Under the pieces are notes generated by a model. That model ran no database searches, was not told the origin of the DNA, and saw only the letters and a list, made by a program, of their open reading frames with translations. From NCBI GenBank assembly GCA_961205875.1, contig OY540811.1, positions 36,053,340 to 36,117,339 on the forward strand: a stretch of DNA of 64,000 nt. The letters are read 5' to 3'. A program made the translations under genes and the position numbers. Position 1 is the stretch's first letter, and every line of letters begins with the position of its first letter. Below, one piece after another: positions 39,046 to 64,000 of this stretch. The stretch is from Sialis fuliginosa (taxonomy: Eukaryota; Arthropoda; Insecta; Megaloptera; Sialidae).

Positions 39046-40550
39046 ATGTTTTAGATTAAGGCTGTAGCCGGGTAGCAATGTAAAATCGGCCTCAACACGG
39101 ATTTGGCTAATTTGTATTGTGAACGTTGCTCATTATGTGAGAATTCTTATGCCCAATTATTAGCCTCTAAAAGTTGATCGTTTTTGAAAAAAAAATTATT
39201 TTCAATTTTTTAAAAATATTTTTTTTTAAGAAATTTTTTTTTTGATTAAGTTCAAACTATGGTACAATGTAGAAGTTGAAAAGGTGCATATCAGGTAATA
39301 TTTTCAAGATGCTGCGCATACTCTAACAAGTAAAAAAAAAAATTTGAAATTTTGAAAAAAAAATTTTTTTGGTTGTAGTTGAGCGACAACTTCAAATATT
39401 TCATGAAATAATCTTCATACTTTAGTATTACACCCTGCAAAATCTGAATAGAATCGAAGTGGTAGAACATACTTAAAAAAAATTAAAATCATTGGAAGTC
39501 AATATTAACATGTACAAATGCTATAGAAATAATGTAATGTAAACATAGTATAAAAATGATACAAAAACAGTAATTTAAATAAAATGAACTCGAAATATTT
39601 AATAAGAACGCTTCTGTCTCCCACTGCCCGTTTATCTTACCGTCTTGGGCATACATACATTTCTTATGGTGATATACACATTATTACACATTTATAGTCC
39701 AGGCCACTACATGAAATTGAGTTTCTTGAAGTACTTCGTATAACATTTTGCAAACAAAGCTATTAAGAGTATTTTGGCCCTGCTGAATCCAAAAATCGCT
39801 GTTACCAAGCCGAAACATTGACCGGAAATTCAATATGAAAGATGGCGACCAATATGGCGTTCAAACAATAATTTTCTTATTCTTGGCAGGCTTTTGAACA
39901 AAATGAACATATCTATTTAACAACTTTGTTGTATGCTACCCTTATGTGAAATTTAAAATTTGCCACCTTTCTCCCCAAAATACAATTTAAACCCTTACTA
40001 TGTACATAGTATCTAAAACCAATTGTTCTTATTGTACTTCTTTGACTTTAAAAAATAAATGAGGTAGAATTATATAAAACAACAAAATTATTCGTTTTTA
40101 AGTGCAAAAGTTTTTTAGGGGCGCCTAAACATCCCTTATGTTTTATTATATTACATTATATTTTTCTTATACATTTATATTAATATTATTTAAATACAAA
40201 ATTACACATTTAATGATCTATCGTGTAATTTTACTACCCTTATATTAAATTAAATATTTGCACCTACCCCCTCTTCTAGTGAAGTCCAACAACGAAAAAA
40301 AAATATTGAAATAGTTTTGTTATACGAATTATTTCAAGAAACTCAATCTCATGTAGTGGCCTGAACTATATGTGTATATCACCATAAGAAATGTATGTAT
40401 GTCCAAGACGGTAAGATAAACGGGCAGTGGGAGACAGAAGCGTTCTTATTAAATATTTCGAGTTCATTTTATTTAAATTACTGTTTTTGTATCATTTTTA
40501 TACTATGTTTACATTACATTATTTCTATAGCATTTGTACATGTTAATATT

Positions 40551-42550
40551 AGTCCAGTAACTTTGTCGCCTGAATGTATGGGGTAGTATGCGTTAAATCC
40601 GGTAGTTCTGATTTTTTGCAGACTTGTTTATGATGTTGGCCTAATGAATAATCCAAGTTTGTGACCTCGAGCGCCGAACGCAACTTTGTCAAAAATCGAA
40701 AAAATCGTTATTTTTTCAAATTTTGGCGATTTTAACCCTAAAGGACTAGTTTTTGAAAAAACTTGTTTAGTACGTTTTTAAAGTAGACTAAATTTGCTAC
40801 AATATGATACTAGAATTGTCTCTGTAGACCCAATAGTTTCCGAGATTAAGCCTTTCAAAGTTTATCATTTTTTTCGAACTTCACAATTTTTTGCAATATT
40901 TTAGACGTCACTCGAATAACTCTAGCGGGATGAAGTTCCAATTACCTCCGACGGAGTGTGCTAGTATTGCTCGTGTGAAGTCACGAATCGGAACCTAGCA
41001 ACTGGTCCCCAGTGCTCCGCCATCTTGTCTATTTTGCTACTATTTTGCTACCTTACTTGCATCAATTACATATCATTCATCATTTTCTATTCTCATGTAC
41101 AATCTTCTTAAAGGTACACGCGTGGTTGGGAGTTACACTGAACCCTCTCTCCTGGGGGTAGATATCCACGTCACAAGGCCTCAACCCCAAAATGATGACC
41201 AGAGATGCAGCCCCACAACACCGCTTGCGGATGATTTCTTGTGGCTGCACGAAGGGTTGTGGGAACGCGTGCAGCTGCAGGAAGGCAGAATTAAAATGCT
41301 CATCAGTCTACAGGCACTGCAGCGGGGCCTCTTGTGACAATATACCTGATGTTGCAGAAGTAGATATCCCAGAAGGCGACGATCTGTCCGATGTCGAAAT
41401 GGAGGATGACTTGTGGGCACAAGACACTGATCTGGTATTATTTAACTGGATAGTGGATACCTTTGGAATTACTATTAAACCGGATGGCTAAATTTCATAC
41501 TTTTTCTAACAGTATCATTTCCATTTGCGCATGCGCGAGACGCAACACTGAACTCAATTTTGATATAATATAGAGGTATGTGACGTGATTCTATAGTTTC
41601 TTTATTCAATTGTTAATCAGATTTGACAGTTAATATGCATCTATGGTTGTTTATTTAGTTATTATTTGATAATTAAAATAAATTACAGGTATTCGCGTAT
41701 TTAATAAGTGTAGTTGTGTAGTTGATATACAATCGAACTTGTATGTATTTATTTATATATTTAACAATCAATTTGATAAATTTGAATTTCGAACATCCGT
41801 TGACGCATGCGCATAATCAGTTTCGGTTGTTAGGAAATATTCAATTTCAGCCATCATGTCTGACTTATCATCAGTCCAGCCATGTCAATGGCACAAGACG
41901 TCGACGATTCATCACCATCCCCTGATGGGGATATGCCATCCCAATACGTCCAGATACGGACGAACCTCAACCGGGACCTTTCAATAGGGCTAAATTAATT
42001 TAATTTTTTGATTTTGAATATTACTCAATTTCCTAACAAATAAACTTATTCACTTTTGTTGTACTTATCTTTTTTACTTCATTATTCGTAGCTTAGCTTA
42101 AACATCATCGTTCACACTTCTCATTTTCTTTTTTAACATCCCATCATAAAAGTACAGGGCTTCGATAGTATAATCAGGTTCAAAATTCATTCAGAACGAC
42201 AGAATTGCAAAAAATTGCGAAGTTCGAAAAAAATGATAAACTTTGAAAGGCTTAATCTCGGAAACTATTGGGTCTACAGAGACAATTCTAGTATCATATT
42301 GTAGCAAATTTAGTCTACTTTAAAAACGTACTAAAAAAGTTTTTTCAAAAACTAGTCCTTTAGGGTTAAAATCGCCAAAATTTGAAAAAATAACGATTTT
42401 TTCGCGGTTTTTTCGATTTTTGACAAAGTTGCGTTCGGCGCTCGAGGTCACAAACTTGGATTATTCATTAGGCCAACATCATAAACAAGTCTGCAAAAAA
42501 TCAGAACTACCGGATTTAACGCATGCGGTGATGTATAAAGTTACTGGACT
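40551..42550. mobile_element. 2-kb inverted-repeat element carrying a CXC-type ORF
   Basis: The TSD ATATT lies at 40546-40550 and 42551-42555. The TIRs begin AGTCCAGTAACTTT, and the arms extend about 390 bp with patches such as 'ctcgagcgccgaacgcaac'. The unsplit homologue at 48763-48780 shows the empty site. The interior holds the cysteine-rich ORF at 41192-41491. Superfamily not identified. Confidence 0.85.
41192..41491 (+). pseudogene. Cysteine-rich (CXC/Tesmin-like) remnant of a transposon protein
   Basis: The 99-residue ORF holds CGCTKGCGNACSCRKAELKC, then HCSGASC, the spacing of a CXC-like zinc-binding module. An acidic stretch (EGDDLSDVEMEDD) and FNWIVDTFGI follow. I know similar CRKxGLxC modules at the C-terminus of proteins encoded by insect mobile elements. 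Upstream, the same frame hits stops (for example the TAG before 41170) and the reading 'RGWEL' appears in a broken context. This suggests the end of a decayed longer protein. The ATG at 41192 is probably not a true start. Confidence 0.55.
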
Positions 42551-43095
42551 ATATTGACTTCCAATGATTTTAATTTTTTTTAAGTATGTTCTACCACTTC
42601 GATTCTATTCAGATTTTGCAGGGTGTAATACTAAAGTATGAAGATTATTTCATGAAATATTTGAAGTTGTCGCTCAACTACAACCAAAAAAAATTTTTTT
42701 TTCAAAATTTTAAATTTTTTTTTACTTGTTAGAGTATGCGCAGCATCTTGAAAATATTACCTGATATTCACCTTTTCAACTTCTACATTGTACCATAGTT
42801 TGAACTTAATCAAAAAAAAAATTTCTTAAAAAAAAATATTTTAAAAAAATTGAAAATAATTTTTTTTTCAAAAACGATCAACTTTTAGAGGCTAATAATT
42901 GGGCATAAGAATTCTCACATAATGAGCAACGTTCACAATAAAAATTAGCCAAATCCGTGTTGAGGCCGATTTTACATTGCTACCCGGCTACAGCCTTTAT
43001 AGAAAATGTTCTTATCTATAATTTTTGTTTTGTTCATTTTTTCCCTCATATTTTTTTTAGGAAATAATCGATTTTCTTTAATTTTTTGCTGATCC

Positions 43096-44062
43096 GACGG
43101 ACGGGTAACATTTTTTCATAGTTTTTCGCATTTTTCTCTGAAACCGTTCATTTTACAAATACGGCGGAAAGGACTTTTTTTGTAGAGTATAAAATTATCT
43201 TTAAAATAAGTCCAAGCTTAATAATATCGGTTTAAAAGTAACACAAGGAGTACCGGTTTTATAAAATCATAGTAAACTGAGAAAATAATTTAAATAAAAA
43301 AATAAATTAATTAAGGTAATTGAACAAAATATGTAAGATATGAAATAATTACGGTGCCTACTTTACTATTAATGAAGTAATTAATCGTTTTAATTTCCAT
43401 TTTGCGCTTCTCTATTTTTGCACCGCGTGTTTGTATCCATATATTGTAGCTGCTTAGGTACTTCCCTGTGAAAATTGACCAAAGTATGTTTTTCAACTAG
43501 AAATTAAGAATTTAGTAAGTATAAGTTGCATATATTTACAGTAAACGGGTCAATTTTTCATAGAAACGCCTGGGCCGAGATTTCCCCTTAAACTGTCTCT
43601 GAATACATCAAATATCTATTTAATGGTATTGAAGTTATTTTTAATGGAATATCATAATGATTTGAACATTTTACATCAATTCTGTAGTAGGAAGATATCT
43701 TGTTCTGATATACACTAATGTGGGGGTTAAGAATATTAACTCTCTATCCTTTACAATTATACTAATCTTGGTCATTATACGCACAAATTTATGATATTTC
43801 ATAAATATTCTATATAAAATTTTCGTAATAGCATCGAAAGTCAAGTTAAATTGAAAATAATGTGAAAAATTATTTTCTCAGTTTACTATGATTTTTAAAA
43901 ACCGGCACTCCTTGTGTTACTTTTAAACCGATATTATTATTCTTGGACTTATTTCAAAGAAAATTATATGATCTACAAAAAAAGTCATTTACGCCGTATT
44001 TGTTAAATGAACGGTTTCAGAGAAAAATGCAAAAAACTATGAAAAAATGTAACCCGTCCGCC
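43096..44062. repeat. Inverted-repeat element, about 0.97 kb
   Basis: Arms of about 195 bp begin GGACGGGTTACATTTTTTC-like. They share 'tctctgaaaccgttcat', 'gtaacacaaggagt' and 'catagtaaactgagaaaata'. The central 550 bp is unique and non-coding. Confidence 0.75.
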
Positions 44063-44727
44063 ATTTTTTCAAGATGGCGGCGGTAGCACAATTCGGATCA
44101 GATCGGACTTTTTGTGGGATGATCAGGGACACTAGTAAAACGTTTCTAACAAAAATCATTTTGGTCCGAATTAGTTCCCTATATCAGGGAATTTCATGCT
44201 AATCTTATTGGACTATAGTGACCATTTTTTTGATAAATGTAATAAGGTCTAGTTAAAATACCCCCCCCCCTCTTCCCCTCAAAAATATTCTTTGACTTTT
44301 TTTGCAAATAGGCGAAATAGGCTTATGTCGGACTTTGCAATATTTATTCTAGAAACCGCAATAATCCGGCAAATATGCATAAAAAGACAAATTCCCATTG
44401 CATTTTTACTTACATAAAAATATCCAATAAACATATTAGTTCAACTCATTTGTAATTAAAATCAAATTCAGGTATTATAGGCCCTATTGAAAATGTTCTA
44501 CGCATGTATGCCGCGCGCCTAAACTCGTGACAGTAATAGGCGCGCCTAACGGAGGGTTAATATATTTTATGATAGGGGAGATTCAAAATAATACAAGAAT
44601 ACATGTGAATTTGACTTCGTTGTATTAAATCAAAAAAATCCTCAGGAAGGGGAGATTTTACATAAGCCCCTACCCCCATCAGCCCTAGATTCAACACTGT
44701 TTTCTATTGCATGTATTCATATTTACA
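44063..44727. other. Gene-free stretch
   Basis: No exon or clear element. It includes a run of C (44261-44270) and a GC-rich patch near 44510-44560 ('gccgcgcgcctaaactcgtg'). Confidence 0.4.
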
Positions 44728-45133
44728 CAGGCCCGGATTTATCATGCAGGCAGAGTAGGCAGCTGCCTAGGGCGGCAAATTTTGGTGGAAACTTTGAAAA
44801 CTTGTTATATTCGTGGGAATTGAATTTGATTTTGATTCCATTATGGATGAGTTTGCCATCCGAAAATCGAGACGTAAAAATTTCAACCCATAAGCAATAA
44901 TTTATCTATACATGTAACTCAAGCATGACTAAAAAAAAAAGGTCTTCAGTTTTTATATTTCCTAATGTAACATAACTATAAAAATTTATAAAATTTGAAA
45001 CTGACGCAACCAAAAAAAAAAGATCCTGAGTTTTATATTTTGACATCTAATGACTTAAACTGTTAGTTTCGAGAGGGGGGGGCGGCAATTTTCGCAACTG
45101 CCTAGGGGCGGCAAATTTCTAAATCCGGGCCTG
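44728..45133. mobile_element. hAT-type MITE, perfect 8-bp TSD
   Basis: The TSD TATTTACA lies at 44720-44727 and 45134-45141. The TIRs CAGGCCCGGATTTA match. Subterminal 'agctgcctagggcggcaaat' recurs inverted as 'gcctaggggcggcaaat'. 406 bp, non-coding. Confidence 0.92.
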
Positions 45134-45438
45134 TATTTACAAATATTGATTGTTTTGATAATTGCTAATTTTAATTTTTCATTTTTCCAGTGAACAAAAT
45201 TAATTTTAATCAATATTTTTTTTATATATTTTATGTACATATACCTATGTATTATACTTGTCACAATTTGATAAGAATAGTGTTGCCAGGTGTCCGCTTT
45301 TTTCACATTATGTTCACTTTTTTTTCATAAAATAGTGGACATTTTTTTTATTTAAAAGCATTATAATGAAATGGTACATAATCTAAAGCTGTACAGTTTA
45401 AGAGAATAAGGATAGAAGAATCTACATAATGTAGAGCA

Positions 45439-45763
45439 TAGGTGTCCAACCTTTTAAACCTCTGGGGCCGCATAGCAAAAATTTTATTTAATTTAGTTTA
45501 CTGAGGGCAGCAGCTTACAATATAAAACTGAGGACCTTTTTTTTTAGTCGCTTCAATTTCAATTCTTAATTAATATTATAAATATAAATAAATAAGTAGA
45601 AAGTTAGATTAAGAAAAACCTTTTTTTTTTAGTCGTAGATACTAATTTCCATGTAAATTTATTATCATAAATTTTTTATTTTTTTTAATTATGCTCGCGG
45701 GCCGCACCAAGGGTCCTCGAGGGCCACATGTGGCCCGCGGGCCGCGTGTTGGACAAGCTTGAT
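45439..45763. mobile_element. hAT-type (Charlie-like) MITE, 8-bp TSD
   Basis: The TSD GTAGAGCA lies at 45431-45438 and 45764-45771. The left end, 'taggtgtccaaccttttaaa' with 'ggggccgcat', pairs with the right end 'gggccgcgtgttggaca'. This is the widespread hAT pattern of a GGCCGC-rich subterminus. Confidence 0.87.
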
Positions 45764-45771
45764 GTAGAGCA

Positions 45772-47428
45772 CGAATTTGTCAAACCAAAGATTTCGTTGA
45801 AGCATTATAAACATAATCATTGTTTTTATGTAAATACTATTTTTCTGTGTTCTAATTAAATCACAATGTAATTAATATCAGGTTAATCTTTAGTAATAGC
45901 CATCAGTTGAATCAGTTCTCACAATCAGTATAAAACACAAATACATAGCTTCAGTGAATTTAGCAGATTCTATACGAATTCGTGAATTCACTGAAATTTG
46001 AATTAAATCTAAATAAGTAAATTATTGTTCACATAATAATGTATAATATTATTTAAATATATCAGTTAAATAATTCGTTCATTATATAATTTTTACCTAA
46101 CCCCCCTCTCTCACCCCCCCCCCCAGGCCCATAAGAAATAATTAGCTATTGTTGAGTTTATATCACATATTCTATAAAACCGTAAATCCAGTACAAATAT
46201 TCAGGTTAGACTCACCTTGTTTTGTTAATAAACAAAAGTACATCAAGTACTCCTATATTTAACTAAAGTTAATAGATAAAAACAATCTACAATTAAAACT
46301 AATGTTAATCGTTACAATAAATAATACTAACTTAATTATTTCAACACATATTGAATCCAATTAATAATTATATATTTTATTTAATATTGATTTCAGGTAT
46401 TTTCAGCACTTATCTAGCGTTACTCATTTGTTAATATTACAATGATAATGTTTTATCTGTTTGCATAATATTTCTTGTCTATTATCTGTTACCAGTGGCG
46501 GTTCGTTGTTGTAATATTTATATCACCTGACGGAATTTGTGTTATATTTACATTTCACAAGTGATATCACTGGCGTGCGATACGGTACGCGCGTTTACCT
46601 AGGTCTATGTCAGCGGTTCCAAACCTTTATTGACTTGCGTACCCCACTTCCCTAAATTGTACCACCATATTAAAAAAAATGTTTGTAATTTACATATTAG
46701 TCCAGGCTAGAGCTGGGCGCGGGCCGTGAATTGTTCGGGTCACGACCGTGACTCGTGTGGGCGTGAGCGATTTTCAAATCTTGAATCGTGATCGTGAGTC
46801 AAATTAAAACAATCGTGCGTGAGTACATTTTTCTCGTGTGTGAGTCCGTGAGTATATTTTGAAGATAATTTTGTTTATAAACTTTTATATGGTCAGTGTT
46901 GACAACTATAACACCAAAAAAATATTTAAAAATGCAATGTAGCTTTATTTTCTTATTGTTTTGTTTGCTATTACTTGTACTAGAATGCAGTTTAGAAGAA
47001 ATAATATGAATATAAAATATACACAACATATTGCATGTAAAAAACATAAAGAGCATGGCAGGGTAAGCATGGACGATCTGCCCCTGGGGAAAGTTGGGTC
47101 AATATTTTTTTTATATAAAGGTATGACTAAAAGGTACTCTTCTACAAACTTTTGGGCCCCTGCGCCCACTAATTTTACGGGAAATATGAAAAATGTAATT
47201 TAGAAAAAAAATTTTTTTTGCTGTAATGACTTTATAAATGTCGATCTCTGCGATATATGTTGTAGCTATACCTTAGTAGTATCATATCAATTTTTTTTGA
47301 AAAATCTCCCATCAAAAATACGTAGAAATTTTCGATTCCAAAATTTTCAAAAAAAATTTTTTTTGCTTAAATGGCCTGGTACACCTACGAAATTTTTTCA
47401 TAAATACCCCTTATTATACAGAAACACA
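45772..47428. other. Gene-free stretch with TE-end fragments
   Basis: A hAT-like left end ('cagcggttccaaaccttta') starts near 46611. A GC-rich element-like start ('gagctgggcgcgggccgtg') follows near 46709, with repeated 'cgtgagt' motifs. Neither right end was paired. C-runs occur at 46102-46125. ORFs at 46799-47203 overlap on both strands and lack family features. Confidence 0.4.
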
Positions 47429-49318
47429 TATATTTTTTTCAAATTCCTACTTTGGGTGGACGGGGGGTAAAATTAAATATGTTTACTGACCTCTATTTCT
47501 ATAGTGGATTTGCATATTATGTAGTATGGTGGGTTAAAATAAGGAAATTTTCGCGGATCGAAACGTAATAGTTCCTTCTCATTAATACATACATAAAGAA
47601 AATGATTTTTTTGAAATCAGTCAATAAATATCTGGGGATCACACATTAGGTCTAAAATTTCGGAAAGGCTGTAGCCGGATAGCAATGTAAAATCGGTCTC
47701 AACACGGATTTGGCTAATTTTTATTTTTAATGTTGCTCTTTATGTGAGCATTCTCATGCCCAATTATTAGCCTCTAAGAGTTGATAGTTTTTGGAAAAAA
47801 AAAATATTTTCAATTTTTCAAAAAAATATTTTTTTTAAGAATTTTTTTATTGGATAATGTAGAAGTTGTTTTGGTTGTAGTTGAGCGACAGCGATACTTT
47901 AATATTACACCCTACAAAGTCTGAAAAGAATCGAAGTGGTAGAACATACTTAAAAAAAATTAAAATCATTGGAAGTCAATATTAACATGTACAAATGCTA
48001 TAGAAATAATGTAATATAAAAATAATATAAAAATGATATAAAAACAGTTATTTAAATAAAATTAATTCGAAATATTCAATAAGAACGCTTCTGTCTCCCA
48101 TTGCCCGTTTGTTTTAGAGTCTTGGACATATATACATTTCTTATGGTGATATACACATATTTGTAGTCCAGATCACTTTACATGAAACTGAGTTTCTTGA
48201 AGTACTTCGTATAACATTTTGCAATTAAAGCTATTAAAAGTAATTTGGTCCTGCTGAATCCGAAAATCACTGTTACCAAGCCGAAACATTGACCGGAAGT
48301 TCAATATGAAATATTTTTTGAAATGTATGCTACCCTTATGTAAAATTTAAAATTTGCCTCCTTTCTCCCCAAAATACATTTTAAACCCTTACTATGCACA
48401 TAGTATCTAAAACCAACTGTTCTTTTTGTATTTCTTTAACTTTAAAATAATAAATTAAGTAGAATTATGTAAAATATTATTCGTTTATAAGTACAAGGTT
48501 TTTTTAGGAGTGCCTAAACATCCCTTATATTTTATTATATTGCATTATATTATATTATTCTTATACATTTATATTATATTATTTAAGTACAAAATTACAC
48601 ATTTAGTGATCCATCGTGTAGTTTTCCTACCCTTATATTAAATTAAATATTTACATCCAGTGAGGTCCAACAAAAAAATTGAATATTTCGAGTTAATTTT
48701 ATTGAAATAACTGTTTTTATATTATTTTTATATTACATTATTTCTATAGCATTTGTACATGTTAATATTGTCTTCCAATGATTTTAATTTTTTTTAAGTA
48801 TGTTCTACCACTTCGATTCTTTTCAGACTTTGTAAGGTGTAATATTAAAGTATCGCTGTCGCTCAACTACAACCAAAACAACTTCTACATTATCCAAAAA
48901 AAAATTCTTAAAAAAAATATTTTTTTGAAAAATTGAAAATATTTTTTTTTCCAAAAACTATCAACTTTTTGAGGCTAATAATTGGGCATGAGAATGCTCA
49001 CATAAAGAGTAACATTAAAAATAAAAATTAGCCAAATCCGTGTTGAGGCCGATTTTACATTGCTATCCGGCTACAGCCTTTCCGAAATTTTAGACCTAAT
49101 GCGTGATCCCCAGATATTTATTGACTGATTTCAAAAAAATCGTTTTCTTTATGTATGTATTAATGAGAAGGAACTATTACGTTTCGATCCGCGAAAATTT
49201 CCTTATTTTAACCCACCATACTACATAATATGCAAATCCACTATAGAAATAGAGGTCAGTAAACATATTTAATTTTACCCCCCGTCCACCCAAAGTAGGA
49301 ATTTGAAAAAAATATATT
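47429..49318. repeat. 1.9-kb giant palindrome
   Basis: The sequence 47429-47665 is the reverse complement, almost base for base, of 49081-49318 (for example 'aggtctaaaatttcgga' against 'tccgaaattttagacct'). It flanks the inverted-repeat element 47666-49080 symmetrically. Total arm length is roughly 700 bp around a loop of about 450 bp. Confidence 0.9.
47666..49080. mobile_element. Unsplit copy of the long-inverted-repeat element
   Basis: Same termini and arm sequence as 39059-42997 (AAGGCTGTAGCCGGATAGCA...), but without the 2-kb insertion and with shortened arms near 47850-47890. It reads straight through the empty site at 'gttaatattg' (about 48762). Confidence 0.85.
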
Positions 49319-49329
49319 ACTTGTAATTT

Positions 49330-49640
49330 TTTTGAATTTTCGAATTATTTTTGAAATAAATAAATGTTTTAAATAAAAAATGTCGAGTATGTTATTATCT
49401 ATAATTTATTCCCCATACATTTTTTTCCAACATTTATGATTTAGTCAGAAAGAATTTTTTAAAATAATTATTTAGACTCAACCACATTGTTCACTCTCAG
49501 TATTACGTATAAGAAAGTCCCATGGTACCTACGGCAAACACGCACACTGTTCAATCTCTGTAATATGTATAAGAAAGTCCCATGACACTCATGGCAGATA
49601 TTTCTTCTCTGTTATGAACCATTTGAATTATAATTTAAAA
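49330..49640 (+). repeat. Interspersed repeat family D, copy 3
   Basis: Closely matches 14500-14780, with the 'tcgagtatgttattatctat' and paired 'acgtataagaaagt'/'atgtataagaaagt' motifs. Confidence 0.65.
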
Positions 49641-50010: not shown

Positions 50011-51367
50011 ACTTAACTATTGTATATCTACTATATATAATGAAGTGCCCTGACTCACTGATAATCATTTTTTTGACCATTTCCACTCATCGGAGAACCT
50101 TGAAATTTGGTATATACATTCCTTGGGGGTAAAAAATAACAACTAGTGGGCCTTTTTTGAAAAAGTTTATAAATGGGGTGACAAGGGGCCCCCAATTTTT
50201 CAAAAAAAAAGTTAGAATTTTTTTATTATTTTTTTTATATTCCTTGGGCGATATAATGTAAGGTTCAAATTTCAGATTTAAAAAAAATGAAAAAAAAAGG
50301 AAACAAAAAGTTTTGATGTAAAAAAGTATCAAAACGAAAACCGATATTAGATTTTTTTAATTTTTTTCAAATACTTTGGTTAATTGACAACAATGAACCC
50401 GTGTCTGATTTTTGAAAAAGATATGTTAAAGAGGAGAAAATAAACAAAATACGTTTACATATAATGCGCTTTAAGCATTTACTAAATTAATTGCAAATGT
50501 CGTAACTATGGATACATTATATTTTATTGATTATTTTTAAAAATTTTAAATGTCAGTGGCCATTTAAAATTTTGAAGTGAACAATAAAATATAACAAAAA
50601 AGAAATATAAAGAACATAACGAACGAAAAAATATGCACAACTCTAATGTAATATATAATTTAAATTTTCATAAATAAATTTGACAAAAAAATTGAAGACA
50701 AACAATTACAGCATTCGGACACAATTCGACCAACATTCGGCGATAGATATGTGTTCCCGGTACAAATAAAAATTAAGTAGGTATATAATGACATTTTTTA
50801 AATCTTAAGTCATTGAATTATCAATATTTTTACTTTCATAGTTATAGGTATTTTATTATATTTATTTGTAATCATAAATATTAGAAGAATTTATATAATT
50901 TCAAATTAACATTGTAATTTTAAATGATATTATTTTAATTGTTGTTTGAAAATGTATATCTGTCATCTTTAACCTAAAATGTACATTTACAAAATTAAAA
51001 CAAGATGTTGATTTATTGCAAATTGTTACGAAAGCTTCATTCAATTGACAAGACCTATATTTGATTGTAATTAATTAATTAATTGTACAAAGGGTGTACG
51101 AGTATCTACAAGAGCTAATAATGTATTTATATAGACACATTGATGAATTTTTGAAAGACACGAGCAGAAAAACCAAAAATGAAATTATTTTTAATATTCA
51201 TAAAATGTTCAAATCATGTAAGTACATGATGTAATACAATACATGTACCAGAAGTCATAAAATAATTTTTTGTCGTTGTCATATCAGAAACAAATATCAT
51301 AATATGTATTTAGTATGCAATATATTTTCATACGACAAGAGTTGAAAACGCATCGTAAACAAATATA

Positions 51368-51656
51368 CAGGTAATCCTCGACTTATAATTGTCTTTGTCT
51401 CTTTCTTACATGCACATATTACATAAATGAAACAAACAGTTCCGGGAATTTCCCAAAAATGTAATTTATTATTATTTATGTAGATATTTTTGGGAACCCG
51501 CAACTGTTTGTTATGTATAGAAAATGCGATTCGCTTCACATCAAGGAAAACGTCCAAAGCAAAAATATGTACATATTGTACGTGTTAACTTACAACTTAT
51601 TCTATTTACGATCGATGTTTAGAAACCTATCTCGGTTGTAAGTCGAGGAATACCTG
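51368..51656. mobile_element. Mariner-type MITE inside Helitron unit 1
   Basis: TA-flanked TIRs CAGGTAATCCTCGACTTA and CAGGTATTCCTCGACTTA. The inner arms share 'acaaacagttccggga' and 'ttcccaaaaat'. Unit 4 has an unoccupied equivalent site near 61172. Confidence 0.85.
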
Positions 51657-52800
51657 TACTACGATATATAACGTATGTCTTATCAGTTTAAGCGTAAAAA
51701 ATATCAAAGTTAATATTCAATGTTTTTAAATGCTGCGAGAAGTTCAAACATGCTTGACTGATTTAAATTTACTTTTTTCCTTATTTTATATATTACTTAC
51801 AAAATAACCAAGACGTTCCATTAAAATTTCAGGATTTGTGAAGTGTTCTGTCGTAGGAAAAGTTTAGGAAGCACTGTTCTACATCATACTTCAATATCAA
51901 CCAAATTGAGTTATTGTGGGTAAAAAATATATTGAAAAAACCTCATAGAGAAACCATATTTAGTTTGTGCAATAAAGTTTTAACAGGTACGATTTTTCTA
52001 AAATATCTTAAAATTAATAAAATTAAAATTGATAAAAACCCAGCTCTAATGAATAAATAAGAAAGCACTCCGTCACAGCACTATATTATTCCGTCGCGGG
52101 AAAGTACCTACCATATAGGCCAGTCAGGATCCACTCAGGGCTAGCTACGTCACTGGTTACGATACTATATTATTGTTGGTTACGATATTTCATAAAACAG
52201 ATATCGGTGCTTAGAATACATTGTCTGGAGGAATACGATAAAAGTTTTAACAGATTTTTTAGCGGAAAAGAGAATTTTGTCGCTTATATATGAGATTTTT
52301 AGAATCGATAACTCAATTTCGCAAAAAGTGTATCTTACGATACTTTGCCTTGGAGGGGACGATATAGAAATAATTTAACCAGGTATGTTATAATTTAGGT
52401 ATATAAAAACATAGTACCTAGCCATGGAATACGGAATTTTATAATTTACGGTTTCAATATTTTATTTTATTAATTTAGGTTACTATGATTATGTCTCTTT
52501 AAAATATTTTGTCGAACAATTAAATGATTTTTGACACATATTAACAATTAAATATTTTGAAATGCCTATATTGATTGAAAATTTAAATATGAAGAAACAT
52601 TTCACTTCTATGAAAGGTAAAATATCGAAATTAATTATTAGGTTTGGTGTAAATTTTTCGAAACACAATTTTTCGAATCACAATTTTTTGAATCAAAATT
52701 CTTCGAATGAACAATTTTTCGAAAAATTTAAGTTTTATTGTTCAAATTTTAATTAGTTAATAAAATATTAAGTAAAGTAATATTTGGACATTTTACGATA

Positions 52801-53754
52801 TCCATACTAATATTATAAATGCGAAAGTGTGTTTGTCTGTCTGTTTTCTGTTTGTTACCTTTTCACGGCTAAACCGCTTTACCGATTTTGATGAAATTTG
52901 GCAGTGAGATAGCTTGCATCCCGAGGACGGACATAGGCTATTTCGTATCTTAAAAATTCAACCCCTAAGAAATTGCAAGGGGGTGGAAATTTTTTAATTT
53001 TTTTTAGTAATTATTATTTTACCCCCCGATACATATGAAGGGTTGTAAGTGGTTTTATTCGATCCGGCGGGAAAAATACCACGGGGGCGTAGGTTTTAGG
53101 GGGCAAAACAACCCTCTATCTCGCATAGGAGCCGAGATATTTACGATTTTGTATAATGAAAGAAAACTAAAAATAAGAAAAATTTAATATTTTACCCCCT
53201 GTCACATATGAAGAGTTGTAATTGATTACATTCGATCTGGCGGGCAAAAATACTACGGAAGAGGGATTATTAGGGGGACAAAACAACCCCTTATCTTACA
53301 TAGGAGTCGCGACTTATATTATAAATGCGAAAGTGTATCTCTCAGTCTGTCTATTTGTTACCTGTTCACGACTAAACTGCTTTACCGATTTTGATGAAAT
53401 TTGGCAGTGAGATGGCTTACATCCCAAGGACGGATTAAGGCTATTTCATATCTCGAAAATTCAACCCCTAAGGAATTGCAAGGGGGAGGAAAATTTTAAA
53501 TTTTTTTTAGTAATAAATATTTTACCCGTTACATATGAAGGGTTGTAAGTGGTTTTATTCGATCCAGCGGGAAAAATACCACGGGGGCGGGGGTTTTAGG
53601 GCGGAAAAACCCCTCTATCTCGCATAGGAGCCGACACATTTACGATTTTGTATAATTAAAGAAAACTAAAAATAAGATAAATTTAATATTTTACCCCCTG
53701 TCACATATGAAGGGTTTCGAAATCCACGCGAGCGAAGTCGCGGGTAGCAGCTAG
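52801..53754 (+). mobile_element. Second Helitron family (3' part of unit 1)
   Basis: Begins A|TCCATACTAATATTATAAATG with 'gcgaaagtgtgtttgtctg', 'accgattttgatgaaattt' and 'ccgaggacgga'. It ends with the CGCGA/TCGCG hairpin and CTAG. A second 5'-like segment starts near 53310, so it contains an internal partial duplication. The pattern is typical of abundant insect non-autonomous Helitrons. Confidence 0.8.
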
Positions 53755-55092
53755 TCTACTATATATAACGAAGTGCCCTGACTGACTGATAATCATTTTT
53801 TTGACCATTTCCACTCATCGGAGAAACTTGAAATTTGGTATATACATTCCTTGGGGGTAAAAAATAACAACTAGTGGGCCTTTTTTGAAAAAGTTTATAA
53901 ATGGGGTAACAAGGGGCCCCCAATTTTTCAAAAAAAAAGTTAGAATTTTTTTATTATTTTTTTTATATTCCTTGGGCGATATAATGTAAGGTTCAAATTT
54001 CAGATTTAAAAAAAAAGAAAAAAAAAGTTTTGATGTAAAAAAGTATCAAAACGAAAACCGATATTAGATTTTTTTAATTTTTTTCAAATACTTTGGTTAA
54101 TTGACAACCATAAACCCGTGTCTGATTTTTGAAAAAGATATGTTAAAGAGGAGAAAATAAACAAAATACGTTTACATATAATGCGCTTTAAGCATTTACT
54201 AAATTAATTGCAAATGTCGTAACTATGGATACATTATATTTTATTGATTATTTTAAAAAAATTTAAATGTCAGTGGCCATTTAAAATTTTGAAGTGAACA
54301 ATAAAATATAACAAAAAAGAAATATAAAGAACATAACGAATGAAAAAATATGCACAACTCTAATGTAATATATAATTAAAATTTTCATAAATAAATTTGA
54401 CAAAAAAATTGAAGACAAACAATTACAGCATTCGGACACAATTCGACCAACATTCGGCGATAGATATGTGTTCCCGGTACAAATAAAAATTAAGTATATA
54501 ATGACATTTTTTTAATCTTAAGTCATTGAATTATCAATATTTTTACTTTCATAGGTATAGGTATTTTATTATATTTATTTGTAATCATAAATATCAGAAG
54601 AATTTATATAATTTCAAATTAACATTGTAATTTTAAATGATATTATTTTAATTGTTGTTTGAAACTGTATATCTGTCATCTTTACCCAATGTACTAACCT
54701 AAAATGTACATTTACAAAATTAAAACAAGATGTTGATTTATTGCAAATTGTTACGAAAGCTTCATTCAATTGACAAGACCTATATTTGATTGTAATTAAT
54801 TAATTAATTGTACAAAGGGTGTACGAGTATCTACAAGAGCTAATAATGTATTTATATAGACACATTGATGAATTTTTGAAAGACACGAGCAGAAAAACCA
54901 AAAATGAAATTATTTTTAATATTCATAAAATGTTCAAATCATGTAAGTACATGATGTAATACAATACATGTACCAGAAGTCATAAAATAATTTTTTGTCG
55001 TTGTCATATCAGAAACAAATGTCATAATATGTATTTAGTATGCAATATATTTTCATACGACAAGAGTTGAAAACGCATCGTAAACAAATATA

Positions 55093-55381
55093 CAGGTAAT
55101 CCTCGACTTATAATTGTCTTTGTCTCTTTCTTACATGCACATATTACATAAATGAAACAAACAGTTCCGGGAATTTCCCAAAAATGTAATTTATTATTAT
55201 TTATGTAGATATTTTTGGGAACCCGCAACTGTTTGTTATGTATAGAAAATGCGATTCGCTTCACATCAAGGAAAACGTCCAAAGCAAAAATATGTACATA
55301 TTGTACGTGTTAACTTACAACTTATTCTATTTACGATCGATGTTTAGAAACCTATCTCGGTTGTAAGTCGAGGAATACCTG
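55093..55381. mobile_element. Mariner-type MITE inside Helitron unit 2
   Basis: Same element, same position and TA flanks as 51368-51656. It was copied with the Helitron rather than inserted independently. Confidence 0.85.
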
Positions 55382-56525
55382 TACTACGATATATAACGTA
55401 TGTCTTATCAGTTTAAGCGTAAAAAATATCAAAGTTAATATTCAATGTTTTTAAATGCTGCGAGAAGTTCAAACATGCTTGACTGATTTAAATTTACTTT
55501 TTTCCTTATTTTATATATTACTTACAAAATAACCAAGACGTTCCATTAAAATTTCAGGATTTGTGAAGTGTTCTGTCGTAGGAAAAGTTTAGGAAGCACT
55601 GTTCTACATCATACTTCAATATCAACCAAATTGAGTTATTGAGGGTAAAAAATATATTGAAAAAACCTCATAGAGAAACCATATTTAGTTTGTGCAATAA
55701 AGTTTTAACAGGTACGATTTTTCTAAAATATCTTAAAATTAATAAAATTAAAATTGATAAAAACCCAGCTCTAATGAATAAATAAGAAAGCACTCCGTCA
55801 CAGCACTATATTATTCCGTCGCGGGAAAGTACCTACCATATAGGCCAGTCAGGATCCACTCAGGGCTAGCTACGTCACTGGTTACGATACTATATTATTG
55901 TTGGTTACGATATTTCATAAAACAGATATCGGTGCTTAGAATACATTGTCTGGAGGAATACGATAAAAGTTTTAACAGATTTTTTAGCGGAAAAGAGAAT
56001 TTTGTCGCTTATATATGAGATTTTTAGAATCGATAACTCAATTTCGCAAAAAGTGTATCTTACGATACTTTGCTTTGGAGGGGACGATATAGAAATAATT
56101 TAACCAGGTATGTTATAATTTAGGTATATAAAAACATAGTACCTAGCCATGGAATACGGAATTTTATAATTTACGGTTTCAATATTTTATTTTATTAATT
56201 TAGGTTACTATGATTATGTCTCTTTAAAATATTTTGTCGAACAATTAAATGATTTTTGACACATATTAACAATTAAATATTTTGAAATGCCTATATTGAT
56301 TGAAAATTTAAATATGAAGAAACATTTCACTTCTATGAAAGGTAAAATATCGAAATTAATTATTAGGTTTGGTGTAAATTTTTCGAAACACAATTTTTCG
56401 AATCACAATTTTTTGAATCAAAATTCTTCGAATGAACAATTTTTCGAAAAATTTAAGTTTTATTGTTCAAATTTTAATTAGTTAATAAAATATTAAGTAA
56501 AGTAATATTTGGACATTTTACGATA

Positions 56526-57479
56526 TCCATACTAATATTATAAATGCGAAAGTGTGTTTGTCTGTCTGTTTTCTGTTTGTTACCTTTTCACGGCTAAACC
56601 GCTTTACCGATTTTGATGAAATTTGGCAGTGAGATAGCTTGCATCCCGAGGACGGACATAGGCTATTTCGTATCTTAAAAATTCAACCCCTAAGAAATTG
56701 CAAGGGGGTGGAAATTTTTTAATTTTTTTTAGTAATTATTATTTTACCCCCCGATACATATGAAGGGTTGTAAGTGGTTTTATTCGATCCGGCGGGAAAA
56801 ATACCACGGGGGCGTAGGTTTTAGGGGGCAAAACAACCCTCTATCTCGCATAGGAGCCGAGATATTTACGATTTTGTATAATGAAAGAAAACTAAAAATA
56901 AGAAAAATTTTATATTTTACCCCCTGTCACATATGAAGAGTTGTAATTGATTACATTCGATCTGGCGGGCAAAAATACTACGGAAGAGGGATTATTAGGG
57001 GGACAAAACAACCCCTTATCTTACATAGGAGTCGCGACTTATATTATAAATGCGAAAGTGTATCTCTCAGTCTGTCTATTTGTTACCTGTTCACGACTAA
57101 ACTGCTTTACCGATTTTGATGAAATTTGGCAGTGAGATAGCTTACATCCCGAGGACGGATTAAGGCTATTTCGTATCTCGAAAATTCAACCCCTAAGGAA
57201 TTGCAAGGGAGAAGAAATTTTTTAATTTTTTTTAGTAATTAATATTTTACCCGTTACATATGAAGGGTTGTAAGTGGTTTTATTCGATCCAGCGGGAAAA
57301 ATACCACGGGGGCGGGGGTTTTAGGGCGGAAAACCCCCTCTATCTCGCATAGGAGCCGACACATTTACGATTTTGTATAATTAAAGAAAACTAAAAATAA
57401 GATAAATTTAATATTTTACCCCCTGTCACATATGAAGGGTTTCGAAATCCACGCGAGCGAAGTCGCGGGTAGCAGCTAG
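56526..57479 (+). mobile_element. Second Helitron family (3' part of unit 2)
   Basis: Same junction (A|TCCATACTAATATTATAAATG) and same 3' hairpin and CTAG as 52801-53754. A few differences lie in the second half, for example near 57200. Confidence 0.8.
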
Positions 57480-58099
57480 TCTACTATATATAATGAAGTG
57501 CCCTGACTCACTGATAATCATTTTTTTGACCATTTCCACTCATCGGAGAAACTTGAAATTTGGTATATATATTCCTTGGGGGTAAAAAATAACAACTAGT
57601 GGGCCTTTTTTGAAAAAGTTCATAAATGGGGTGACAAGGGGCCCCCAATTTTTCAAAAAACAAGTTAGAATTTTTTTATAATTTTTTCTATATTCCTTGG
57701 GTGATATAATGTAAGGTTCAAATTTCAGATTTAAAAAAAATGAAAAAAAAAGGAAAAAAAAAGTTTTGATGTAAAAAAGTATCAAAACGAAAACCGATAT
57801 TAGATTTTTTTAATTTTTTTTAAATACTTTGGTTAATTGACAACCATGAACCCGTGTCTGATTTTTGAAAAAGATATGTTAAAGAGGAGAAAATAAACAA
57901 AATACGTTTACATATAATGCGCTTTAAGCATTTACTAAATTAATTGCAAATGTCGTAACTATGGATACATTATATTTTATTGATTATTTTAAAAAATTTT
58001 TAATGTCAGTGGCCATTTAAAATTTTGAAGTGAACAATAAAATATAACAAAAAAGAAATATAAAGAACATAACGAATGAAAAAATATGCATAACTCTAA
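57480..58099 (+). mobile_element. Helitron array unit 3 (620-bp 5' fragment)
   Basis: The first 620 bp of the unit only. It is cut at 'aactctaa' and followed at once by a fresh TC start. By eye it is identical to the first 620 bp of unit 4, so unit 3 is a very recent partial duplication. Confidence 0.88.
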
Positions 58100-59674
58100 T
58101 CTACTATATATAATGAAGTGCCCTGACTCACTGATAATCATTTTTTTGACCATTTCCACTCATCGGAGAAACTTGAAATTTGGTATATATATTCCTTGGG
58201 GGTAAAAAATAACAACTAGTGGGCCTTTTTTGAAAAAGTTCATAAATGGGGTGACAAGGGGCCCCCAATTTTTCAAAAAACAAGTTAGAATTTTTTTATA
58301 ATTTTTTCTATATTCCTTGGGTGATATAATGTAAGGTTCAAATTTCAGATTTAAAAAAAATGAAAAAAAAAGGAAAAAAAAAGTTTTGATGTAAAAAAGT
58401 ATCAAAACGAAAACCGATATTAGATTTTTTTAATTTTTTTTAAATACTTTGGTTAATTGACAACCATGAACCCGTGTCTGATTTTTGAAAAAGATATGTT
58501 AAAGAGGAGAAAATAAACAAAATACGTTTACATATAATGCGCTTTAAGCATTTACTAAATTAATTGCAAATGTCGTAACTATGGATACATTATATTTTAT
58601 TGATTATTTTAAAAAATTTTTAATGTCAGTGGCCATTTAAAATTTTGAAGTGAACAATAAAATATAACAAAAAAGAAATATAAAGAACATAACGAATGAA
58701 AAAATATGCATAACTCTAATGTAATATATAATTAAAATTTTCATAAATAAATTTGACAAAAAAATTGAAGACAAATTACAGCATTCGAATGACTAACATT
58801 CGGCATAACATAGGTAATACATTAAAATTTAAAACTTAAAGTTATTGATATATCAATATTTTTACCTACATAGGTATTTTATATCAGAAGTATTTATTTA
58901 ATTCACAATTAACATTGACGTAATTTTAAATGATATTTTTTTAATTGTTAGCATTTGTACATCTGTTAAGTATCCACATTTACTTATCTATGTATGCAAG
59001 CATCTGTGCATCTGTACCAATCTGTATATCATACATCTAAAATGTCAATGTGTATCTACTGTGCTCTAACTTTTAAATAGTTGAACTGATTTCAAATGAT
59101 TTATTGCGAAATGTTCGAATACAGTGACAAAATTCGTTTAATTTACAAGAATATTTGATTTAAAAAAAGGTTAATCTTTTTTAATACGAAATGTAGGTAT
59201 ATACTAATATATAGTTAATTGTAATTAATTGTAGAAAGGATGTACAACAAGAATGTATACAAGCTACTAATAATATATTTATATAGAAACATTGATTTAA
59301 TTTAGATGACTTTTTGAAAGACACGAGGAGAAAAACCGAAAATGAAATTATTTTTAATATTCATAAAATGTTATTTCAAATCATGTAAGTATATACAATA
59401 TATTTAAAAGTCAGCATTATTCCATTATCATAAAAAAGTAATTATCATCTGTAGGCTTTCATGGCTGTTCATATATGAACTTTGGTTTCCGAACTGATGT
59501 CAACGTTTAAATGTTTTTTTGTTGGCGTTGTCCATATGAACATATGTATGGCTTGATGTTTCGACTTCCATGTCGGAGTCTTTTTCATATAAGACTAAAG
59601 GTATGTGTAATACAGGGTGACAGATTAAGAGTAACCCATTCTTAATTAATAATATCGAAATAAGTAATCACTTA

Positions 59675-60489
59675 GGGTGCGTTCCAGATGGCACTTGTAA
59701 CGTTACGATCGTTGATTACATCGTTCCGTTTGGCGTTTGAAACGATCATGACGTGTCAAATATTCTGAATGATGCAATTGTAAGAACCAATGAGTGTCAG
59801 TAAAAGCCAGAAATTAAACCGGATATATCTGATACAATTCCTTATACGTATATACCAAAGTTGTAAACAACGGAGTTAGCGGACATCTGTCAGGAGAGTA
59901 AGTCCCTCCTTTTTTATAATTTAATTAAATATCCTTAAGATTCTTTGTTTACCGGGGTTCATATTTTTCATCGTTGAAATGATTTGCATTATTTTGTGAT
60001 TGTTGCAGAAATCAAAATTTGCATTTTACAATAATTTCTACAATCAAAATTATTTCTATGCCGGATAGTTAAAATATTTAAAAAAAAAACTATTATAATA
60101 ATGTTTTTTAACTGTGATATTTTTCTTTGTTCTGTATTATTTTTAGTTTTGAACGAGTTAAAATTAAAAAAATTACCAAAAAAAAACATTTATTTTTTCA
60201 GTTAATACGATAAGGAGTTAAATCTAACAGGGAATTGCTTAAGAGGTTCACGTGCGTTACTTTCCTTCAATAACAATTTCACCGAAGAACCTCATTATGT
60301 TCTGATGAAGGAAGTATTCAGTCAAACATTTGGTGTTCCTAACCACCACCCGAAGAACCAGCCGTTCTTCAATAATGTTTACACATTCAGTGTTTTGGAT
60401 AATCGTATATGGTTCAGGAACTTCCAGATACTGTCAGAAGACGGCGCTTTGGCTGAAATAGGGTCCAGATTCATTCCTGGAACGCACCC
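59675..60489 (+). mobile_element. Harbinger-like element carrying a host gene fragment
   Basis: The TIRs GGGTGCGTTCCAG match over 13 bp, flanked by TTA at 59672-59674 and 60490-60492. A 12-bp TIR with 5-bp TSD CTTAG fits equally well. TTA targets and GGG-starting ends are typical of PIF/Harbinger. The interior encodes no transposase; it holds part of a BRX1-like gene running almost to the right TIR. Confidence 0.82.
60206..60472 (+). pseudogene. BRIX1: Captured BRX1-family (Brix domain) fragment
   Basis: One open frame reads KELNLTGNCLRGSRALLSF, then EEPHYVLMKEVF, FGVPNHHPKNQPF, and LDNRIWFRNFQI...EIGSRF. This matches the central Brix domain of BRX1, a nucleolar factor for 60S ribosomal subunit assembly. 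A polypyrimidine tract and CAG (60192-60201) precede it, so genomic DNA with an intron edge was probably captured, not a processed mRNA. A TAA at 60203 lies in frame near the left edge. The frame runs into the TIR after SRF and stops at 60491-60493. It covers only about 90 of roughly 300-350 residues, so it cannot be a working BRX1. Confidence 0.88.
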
Positions 60490-60529
60490 TTAGTGGGCCT
60501 AATTTTAACTATCAAATCTTTTGTGAACC

Positions 60530-60874
60530 TTAAAGTTTTTGTAAAAATGGTGTTATGGCCGATTGATGGTTTTCGACAGACGAGTAACACAAATTCTGTT
60601 TATTCCTCTCGCCAAGAAATTGGAAATGCGCTTCGTTGCTCATAATTATGATGTTAACAAAATTATTCCCTCTATCTAAAATCCAACGACTGAAATCCAA
60701 ACATGTGTTTAAGTCATTTGGAAAAAGTTTTTGAGCGTTTTGCCATTTGTATGGATGAAAGTGTAAATCTTTCTTCAAAATTAGATTTGATTGATTAAAA
60801 TTTGCTTCAATCCTGTTTGTTTTTCTTCTCCGATACACTTCCAATTGTCTTGCGATTTGAAGCCACGGGAACAT
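60530..60874 (-). pseudogene. Tc1/mariner-superfamily transposase remnant
   Basis: The ORF has LILKKDLHFHPYK, then an NDLNTCLDFSRWIL stretch and IIIMSNEAHFQFLG...NKQN. This is the pattern around the second catalytic acidic residue of IS630/Tc1/mariner-type DDE transposases, usually S-D-E-A-H-F. Here the catalytic Asp position is Asn. Most of the N-terminal DNA-binding domain and everything after about 115 residues is missing. It is an inactive fragment of the element at 59613-61022. Confidence 0.75.
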
Positions 60875-61849
60875 TTAATTGTTGTCGGAACCACCACTGA
60901 GTCTGAATAATTTAATTGGTTAAGGTTAACAAAAGATTTTACAGTTAAAATTAGGTTCACTAAGTGATTACTGTTTTCGATATCATTAATTAAAAATGGG
61001 TCACTCTTAATTTGTCACTCTTTATATTAATTTGAAACATTTTTAATTCTATAGTTATGGCGTAAAAGTTATAAAACATTTTTTTACCGTTGTCGTATCA
61101 AAAACAAATGTGATATAAGAATGTAATATATTTTTATACGACAAGAGTTTAAAACATATCAAACAAAAACACTACGCCAATCGTTCATACTTAGGATACA
61201 CCAACATGTCAAGGTGAAATTCAACATTAAATTAAAAATTTAATTATTTGTTGATCTGGAAATTATTATATTCCAATATTAGAAGTAAATTTTTTAATGA
61301 GAGTTTCGAGTTATATAGGTTATAGTTAGGTGACATCGATAGAGAAACCATAGATGTGAACGGATTTTGATTTATCGAGATTCAACTTATAATAATGTGT
61401 GTATTTTTTTTAAATTAAATAATTTGGTGTGAATTTTGTTTTAAATTAAAATTTTGACAATAATTAACTTGGAAATTACTGTATTCCAATATAGATATAA
61501 TTGAACAGAAAAAAAATTAAATAATTTTTACTTTAGAGATTAAATTTATAAACCCGAGTAACACCGGGTCCAAAGCGTTAGTTATGTAAGGATTCCTTCA
61601 TATTCATAAAGATACAAAATAAGTACATATCATGCTGCGGGGACATATCTTATAGAAAATCGGAAGGCTCTGTAACGCGGAGACTGTATGAACTTGATTT
61701 CTGGGCTGTTATCCATGATATTGTATTAAAAAACTTGAAAATTAATTGATTCCAATATAGAAATACTTTAATTGAAAAAAATTATTACAGAATCTTTACT
61801 TTACAGATTAAATGTATATACTCGAGTAACACCGGGTCCAGCGCGCTAG

Positions 61850-64000
61850 TCTACTATATATAACGAAGTGCCCTGACTGACTGACTGATAATCATTTTTT
61901 TGACCATTTCCACTCATCGGAGAAACTTGAAATTTGGTATATACATTCCTTGGGGGTAAAAAATAACAACTAGTGGGCCTTTTTTGAAAAAGTTTATAAA
62001 TGGGGTAACAAGGGGCCCCCAAATTTTCAAAAAAAAAGTTAGAATTTTTTTATTATTTTTTTTATATTCCTTGGGTGATATAATGTAAGGTTCAAATTTC
62101 AGATTTAAAAAAAATGAAAAAAAAAGGAAAAAAAAAGTTTTGATGTAAAAAAGTATCAAAACGAAAACCGATATTAGATTTTTTTAATTTTTTTCAAATA
62201 CTTTGGTTAATTGGCAACCATGAACCCGTGTCTGATTTTTGAAAAAGATATGTTAAAGAGGAGAAAATAAACAAAATACGTTTACATATAATGCGCTTTA
62301 AGCATTTACTAAATTAATTGCAAATGTCGTAACTATGGATACATTATATTTTATTGATTATTTTTAAAAATTTTAAATGTCAGTGGCCATTTAAAATTTT
62401 GAAGTGAACAATAAAATATAACAAAAAAGAAATATAAAGAACATAACGAACGAAAAAATATGCACAACTCTAATGTAATAAATAATTTAAATTTGACAAA
62501 AAAATTGAAGACAAACAATTACAGCATTCGGACACAATTCGACCAACATTCGGCGATAGATATGTGTTCCCGGTACAAATAAAAATTAAGTAGGTATATA
62601 ATGACATTTTTTAAATCTTAAGTCATTGAATTATCAATATTTTTACTTTCATAGTTATAGGTATTTTATTATATTTATTTGTAATCATAAATATCAGAAG
62701 AATTTATATAATTTCAAATTAACATTGTAATTTTAAATGATATTATTTTAATTGTTGTTTGAAAATGTATATCTGTCATCTTTAACCTAAAATGTACATT
62801 TACAAAATTAAAACAAGATGTTGATTTATTGCAAATTGTTACGAAAGCTTCATTCAATTGACAAGACCTATATTTGATTGTAATTAATTAATTAATTGTA
62901 CAAAGGGTGTACGAGTATCTACAAGAGCTAATAATGTATTTATATAGACACATTGATGAATTTTTGAAAGACACGAGCAGAAAAACCAAAAATGAAATTA
63001 TTTTTAATATTCATAAAATGTTCAAATCATGTAAGTACATGATGTAATACAATACATGTACCAGAAGTCATAAAATAATTTTTTGTCGTTGTCATATCAG
63101 AAACAAATGTCATAATATGTATTTAGTATGCAATATATTTTCATACGACAAGAGTTGAAAACGCATCGTAAACAAATATACAGGTAATCCTCGACTTATA
63201 ATTGTCTTTGTCTCTTTCTTACATGCACATATTACATAAATGAAACAAACAGTTCCGGGAATTTCCCAAAAATGTAATTTATTATTATTTATGTAGATAT
63301 TTTTGGGAACCCGCAACTGTTTGTTATGTATAGAAAATGCGATTCGCTTCACATCAAGGAAAACGTCCAAAGCAAAAATATGTACATATTGTACGTGTTA
63401 ACTTACAACTTATTCTATTTACGATCGATGTTTAGAAACCTATCTCGGTTGTAAGTCGAGGAATACCTGTACTACGATATATAACGTATGTCTTATCAGT
63501 TTAAGCGTAAAAAATATCAAAGTTAATATTCAATGTTTTTAAATGCTGCGAGAAGTTCAAACATGCTTGACTGATTTAAATTTACTTTTTTCCTTATTTT
63601 ATATATTACTTACAAAATAACCAAGACGTTCCATTAAAATTTCAGGATTTGTGAAGTGTTCTGTCGTAGGAAAAGTTTAGGAAGCACTGTTCTACATCAT
63701 ACTTCAATATCAACCAAATTGAGTTATTGAGGGTAAAAAATATATTGAAAAAACCTCATAGATAAACCATATTTAGTTTGTGCAATAAAGTTTTAACAGG
63801 TACGATTTTTCTAAAATATCTTAAAATTAATAAAATTAAAATTGATAAAAGCCCAGCTCTAATGAATAAATAAGAAAGCACTCCGTCACAGCACTATATT
63901 ATTCCGTCGCGGGAAAGTACCTACCATATAGGCCAGTCAGGATCCACTCAGGGCTAGCTACGTCACTGGTTACGATACTATATTATTGTTGGTTACGATA
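61850..64000 (+). mobile_element. Helitron array unit 5 (runs off the window)
   Basis: Starts TCTACTATATATAACGAAGT directly after the CTAG of unit 4. It is collinear and nearly identical with units 1 and 2, including the MITE (63181-63469), up to the last base. The array must continue beyond the window. Confidence 0.88.
63181..63469. mobile_element. Mariner-type MITE inside Helitron unit 5
   Basis: Third co-amplified copy of the MITE at 51368-51656, in the same context. Confidence 0.85.

Follow-up and report, generated by a model that had tools for sequence, protein, structure and literature searches.

A BRX1 fragment captured by a Pack-type TIR element, nested in a mariner-like element and very probably spread by recent Helitron amplification

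Introduction

Pack-TIRs, in which a TIR element surrounds duplicated host sequence, have been surveyed in animals by Tan et al. (2021; PMC8277862), who report 370 of them in 100 genomes (323 being hAT or TcMariner) and none in the insect reference genomes of that study. Multicopy examples were four among the reference cases, to which Ssk-FB4 was added, and the word "Harbinger" is absent from the main text of that article. Helitrons, for their part, are described in another article (PMC4778049) as being marked by a 5' TC, a 3' CTAG and insertion at AT, with read-through reported when the hairpin is missing.

Here we analyze a stretch of 64,000 nucleotides from Sialis fuliginosa (contig C3, 36053340-36117339; hereafter, the window) along with the genome to which that stretch belongs (392 Mb, 20 contigs). 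A preliminary description, made from the letters of the window alone, had proposed that a Harbinger-like element of 815 bp had captured a piece of the host gene BRX1, after the pattern of the Pack elements. We consider it very probable that the capture by a Pack-type TIR element was followed by nesting in a mariner-like element, and that a recent amplification of a Helitron then spread the composite through the genome.

Results

The 815-bp Element and the Captured BRX1 Fragment

The TIRs and the TTA targets of the 815-bp element were confirmed as the preliminary description had given them: the 13-bp repeat GGGTGCGTTCCAG is exact at both ends, with a TTA on either side (Table 1), and at up to two mismatches this 13-mer occurs within the 64-kb window in just those two places, two matches having been obtained in 2 of 100 shuffles. 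Elements of the PIF/Harbinger superfamily generate a 3-bp TWA target duplication, with which the TTA agrees; we accordingly refer to the inner element as Harbinger-like, a name based on that 3-bp duplication together with the TIRs. In 7 of the 30 copies examined below (L007, L010, L013-L016, L018), the right TIR ends in TT and not in CC, which variant is perhaps the marker of a Helitron sub-lineage.

Table 1. Positions of the features described in the text (window coordinates, unless a locus is named).
Feature	Position	Strand	Remark
Helitron-type unit, type B, 3750 bp, the amplified unit	58100..61849	+	5' TCTACTATATATAA, 3' CGCGCTAG
Helitron-like unit of type A, lacking the mariner/BRX1 insert	50027..53754	+	repeat comparison
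Type-A unit adjoining the preceding one head to tail	53755..57479	+	repeat comparison
Truncated unit head, 620 bp, directly before the type-B unit	57480..58099	+	repeat comparison
Further type-A unit, extending past the window end	61850..64000	+	repeat comparison
Mariner-like, TA-flanked element, ~107-bp imperfect TIRs	59613..61022	.	inverted repeats; left TIR split by the inner element
Open frame of the mariner-like element	60530..60874	-	PDB and Pfam searches, see text
Inner Pack-type TIR element, 815 bp	59675..60489	+	TIRs; copies genome-wide
Left TIR of the inner element	59675..59687	+	exact 13-bp match
Right TIR of the inner element	60477..60489	-	exact, inverted
Left target site duplication TTA	59672..59674	.	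flanks the inner element
Right target site duplication TTA	60490..60492	.	flanks the inner element
Stretch shared with the C14 relative	59757..59827	+	L036 4435-4505, 91.5%
Captured BRX1 intron, 3' part, up to the acceptor CAG	60050..60201	+	= L061 1897-2041
Captured BRX1 exon	60202..60472	+	1-base deletion near the start shifts the frame
C14 element, 7456 bp	L036 1025-8480		contig C14; 933-bp inverted ends, 99.6% identical

The coding piece between these TIRs does belong to the Brix domain of the BRX1 family, the frame at 60206-60493 (+) having matched the Pfam Brix profile at 6.2e-19 and human BRX1 at 3.4e-35. To locate the parental gene, we used as query those parts of human BRX1 other than the captured exon, from which search four candidates yielded three matches: two exons of a single gene on contig C13 (locus L061), the parental BRX1, and one piece within an element on contig C14. 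Positions 376-798 of the inner element correspond to L061 1897-2313, with 87.3% identity over 424 columns, and the matched parental stretch begins with 145 bp of intron, crosses the acceptor TTTTTTCAG, and takes in most of the exon that follows. The parental exon occupies L061 2042-2325, and the captured match stops 12 bp before the donor CCG|GTAAG. In the window the clear exon match ends four bases before the right TIR—as had been seen, almost at the repeat itself—and in the family consensus three of those four bases also agree with the parent, up to the TIR. The apparent intron edge of the preliminary description was thus identified as the parental BRX1 intron, running across the acceptor into the exon; a reading of that edge as an intron of the transposon's own, which we had considered because the C14 relative contains the same stretch, was discarded once the parental gene showed the intron to be that of BRX1.

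Two findings had been named at the outset as arguing against a capture, namely, a parental locus flanked by the same TIRs or one lacking an intron at the equivalent position. Neither was encountered: the 11-base TIR core, GGGTGCGTTCC, had no match at up to two mismatches in the 4501 bp of the parental locus, and the parental intron lies at the same position. Both results support the interpretation that the fragment would have been captured from the host BRX1 by a TIR element flanked by a TTA duplication. The arrangement, moreover, is that of a Pack-TIR, with host sequence not derived from transposable elements between the TIRs and the parent elsewhere, on another contig, without them.

Nesting in a Mariner-Like Element

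Tc1/mariner elements have TIRs and are flanked by a TA duplication, and an element with both characteristics, the TA flanks lying at 59611-59612 and 61023-61024, surrounds the inner element. When the insert and one TTA were removed, the rejoined left TIR of the mariner-like element was identical to the right one in 90 of 107 columns, so that the latter, which has ACTTAGTG at the corresponding point and is free of the insert, constitutes a built-in empty site of the inner insertion. The TTA duplication and that empty site together document one insertion of the inner element by its own transposition. The open frame of the mariner-like element, which may resemble a fragment of a transposase, had no match in the PDB at E up to 10 and a weak match to an unrelated family in Pfam.

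Copy Number and Divergence

The BRX1-carrying element was found at 40 places at least, that of the window included (40 of 60 candidates scored; 42 match rows, two places being split), which number is a lower bound. Thirty copies out of those 40 places were fetched and checked for nesting (L001-L030, L002 being the window's own): in all 30, the inner element occupies one and the same site of the mariner-like element, and the sequence just outside the latter is also the same, apart from minor differences in L018 and L024. The divergence was calculated from 27 of these copies, L004, L025, and L030 having been left out because the match did not span the unit. The mean pairwise differences were 0.64% and 0.93% in the 5' and 3' parts of the Helitron-type unit, 1.25% in the 62-bp left end of the mariner-like element and 0.58% in its right part, and 1.22% in the BRX1 part as against 0.71% in the remainder of the inner element. 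So low a divergence at every level of the nesting fits a single composite unit that was recently amplified. The captured stretch, in contrast, differs from the parent by about 13%, a value which, compared with the approximately 1% among the copies, suggests that the capture would be much older than the amplification.

The Helitron-Type Carrier

The mariner-like element is contained in turn within the type-B unit of Table 1, which forms part of a tandem array. Wider flanks were retrieved for 22 of the 30 copies (L034, L035, L038-L057), and in 19 of these both ends—TC and CTAG—are present, no 5' end having been found in the other three (L046, L047, L051). Among the complete copies, 17 are between 3698 and 3770 bp long, the other two measuring 3528 and 4297 bp; and in 16 of the 19 the unit is preceded by an A and followed by a T, although in two of those 16 (L041, L043) the T is the start of another unit. 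The 14 others lie between A and T within DNA outside the unit on both sides, with 20-base flanks that differ; the remaining three complete copies directly follow the end of a type-A unit.

Helitrons usually have a hairpin near the 3' end. In type B the terminal 50 nt showed none (-1.8 kcal/mol, z 1.03), and that of type A was weak (-6.1 kcal/mol, z -0.67, 48 of 200 shuffles being as good); a weak terminator of this sort would fit the formation of tandem arrays. A genome-wide search at up to two mismatches for Helitron copies lacking the mariner-like element gave 0 matches. An LTR-like or plain satellite interpretation of the 620-bp head repeats, entertained at one point, was replaced upon recognition of the Helitron ends.

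Other observations concern the window at large. Over positions 50027-64000, types A and B share the first ~900 bp (88%), the rest being mostly different. Dense repeat clusters, both direct and inverted, occupy 8713-18131 and 39058-49632, with identities for the most part of 80-99%, and are apparently further nested repeats; and an open frame on the minus strand (38162-38608) encodes leucine-rich repeats (Pfam LRR_8, 7.4e-12), with a start that by eye resembles a signal peptide.

A Sister Capture on Contig C14

We searched the genome for exact matches to TWA followed by the 11-base TIR core, provided that the flank did not begin with C, a design that passes over diverged TIRs and flanks beginning with C. 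Outside the nested site there were three exact matches, versus one for the reversed control; two of the three are the ends of a single element on contig C14 (Table 1), and the third showed no further clear similarity. A TTAA stands on either side of the C14 element, a poor fit to a simple TTA duplication. The C14 element contains a relative of the inner element that shares the intron junction at parent position 1897, is joined at a splice acceptor to the last exon and 3'UTR of BRX1, and is partly present as an inverted duplicate; of the four genome matches to that last exon, one is the parent and three are pieces of the C14 element. The common intron junction and the common upstream sequence point to a single capture, from the intron to the 3'UTR, followed by the loss of different exons, and thus suggest one larger BRX1 capture with separate deletions in the two lineages. 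A stretch that the two elements share (59757-59827 in the window, about 4180-4510 in L036) resembles the remnant of an intron-bearing gene, which may be either a second captured host gene or a gene of the transposon itself. A 58-residue peptide read from L036 gave no useful match in Pfam.

Coding Potential and Substitutions

Past the acceptor of the captured exon, each of the three phases runs into a stop within six codons, which circumstance, along with the 1-base deletion near the exon start, makes a spliced BRX1 fusion protein an unlikely product of the copies. The main frame is open in 26 of the 27 aligned copies, as is expected at ~1% divergence. Copy and parent differ in the captured exon by 17 synonymous and 9 nonsynonymous substitutions in 85 codons, and human BRX1, compared by eye, has the parental residue at seven of the nine altered positions, so that these seven changes probably took place in the copy. 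The last exon of the C14 element differs from the parent by 9 synonymous and 5 nonsynonymous substitutions in 70 codons, and its inverted arm by 8 and 7 in 68. The two captured exons when pooled gave 26 synonymous and 14 nonsynonymous differences, where about 7 synonymous ones would be expected had the copies been neutral since leaving the lineage of this genome's own BRX1: the Poisson P, in a test that takes the nonsynonymous count as exact, was about 3e-8, or 0.003 on the assumption of a doubled mutation rate at synonymous sites. When the other C14 arm was pooled instead, the counts were 25 and 16 (P 1.3e-6, or 0.024 at the doubled rate). The middle exon taken singly gave P values of 9e-6 and, at the doubled synonymous rate, 0.016; the C14 arms, likewise, 9e-4 and 0.056 for the one, 0.022 and 0.37 for the other.

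Discussion

The following history would account for these results. A Pack-type TIR element, Harbinger-like, would have copied a stretch of the host BRX1, and the ancestor, to judge from the junction common to the two relatives, would have held at least the intron through the 3'UTR, of which the present lineage kept 145 bp of intron and one exon. The inner element then landed in a mariner-like element, within the TIR on its left, as the other TIR, being the empty site, indicates. The mariner-like element, whose position inside a non-autonomous Helitron is evident, would have come there by insertion; and Helitron transposition plus tandem formation, both recent, would finally have spread the BRX1 piece, the ends and target sites being those observed in the copies and the rolling-circle mechanism being presumed from the family.

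The spread could be conceived of in other ways. If the 815-bp element were an active Pack-Harbinger family multiplied by its own transposition, the near-intact TIRs of the copies and their presence in so many places would be readily understood, as would the 3-bp flanks, which as printed are identical in 16 of the 30 copies (in 12, a TAA at the left stands against a TTA at the right). In all of the fetched copies, however, the position within the mariner-like element and the Helitron is one and the same, a constancy that led us to reject the idea that the 815-bp element was what multiplied, and the TIR-core matches elsewhere in the genome bound one different element or lack clear similarity; we therefore regard that explanation as extremely improbable. 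A segmental or satellite-like duplication of the repeat block, without Helitron transposition, would agree with the head-to-tail units in the window and beside other copies and with the occurrence of five copies within about 0.84 Mb on contig C1; but the exact termination of most wide copies at TC and CTAG, and the entry of 14 of them into DNA outside the unit on both sides, with differing 20-base flanks, make such a process very unlikely as the source of the copies.

As to the role and the provenance of the fragment, the open frames and the preponderance of synonymous changes might speak for a functional, truncated BRX1 peptide under selection; the early stops in each phase, the agreement of human BRX1 with the parent at most of the changed residues, and the low divergence, at which open frames are expected anyway, nevertheless leave that proposal little credibility. 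If the copies gave rise to piRNAs or siRNAs against the BRX1 mRNA, these could draw on uninterrupted stretches of 50 and 29 nt identical to the parental exon, the former of which would in principle permit an antisense or small-RNA effect, and the copies are many and some of them in arrays; the identity to the parent is nonetheless 87% overall, and from the sequences we deem this effect improbable. The synonymous excess raises another question—that of whether the captured BRX1 came from an already diverged lineage, for example that of another species, by horizontal transfer of the transposon, or that of a lost paralogue. Against such a donor, the intron differs from the parent at just 15 of 145 sites, which fits a direct capture, the C14 exon by itself is weak at the doubled rate, and a faster mutation of synonymous sites might produce the same excess; a diverged donor thus appears to us doubtful, though worth bearing in mind. 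Within the history of capture, nesting, and Helitron amplification, the BRX1 piece is most likely carried along as a passenger that yields no protein.

That history would amount to a two-step route for the spreading of a host exon: capture by a TIR element, after which a Helitron bearing that element as nested cargo copies it in bulk. Gene pieces found in Helitrons may be ascribed to capture by the Helitron, and here the piece came inside other transposons. Since the copies at many sites are near-identical, the parent is known, and a sister element kept a different exon, the capture, the loss, and the amplification can be dated separately, and the case renders the small-RNA question testable for BRX1, an essential gene of ribosome assembly. 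Within the titles and abstract openings of the literature on Pack-TYPE and Pack-TIR elements, on Harbinger, and on gene capture by Helitrons—a scope to which most subscription journals and bioRxiv were external—we found no such arrangement, nor, within the same scope, any work on BRX1 together with Helitrons.

The comparison with described systems places this locus among several of them. In common with the animal Pack-TIRs (PMC8277862), of which few are multicopy, we have a TIR element around duplicated host sequence; the multicopy state, however, here derives from a Helitron carrier. Ssk-FB4 of Drosophila melanogaster is likewise a multicopy capture of a host gene by a TIR element, in a fly, but there Ssk was captured almost completely and three loci with distinct duplications indicate that the element moved by itself (PMC8277862), whereas here one exon and part of an intron were moved by another element. 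The plant Pack-TYPE transposons (PMC8903248) are non-autonomous DNA transposons that similarly capture coding DNA, though in plants, and not in an animal genome with a double nesting as in the present instance; while Turmoil-1 of C. elegans (PMC2572040), also an animal transposon with gene pieces inside it, carries them in inverted repeats and not between short TIRs. With the Helraiser Helitrons (PMC4778049), finally, the carrier shares the 5' TC, the 3' CTAG, and the insertion at AT, and members of that group also bear pieces of host genes; the locus described here differs in that the type-B 3' end is without a hairpin and in that the gene piece would have boarded inside TIR elements rather than by Helitron read-through.
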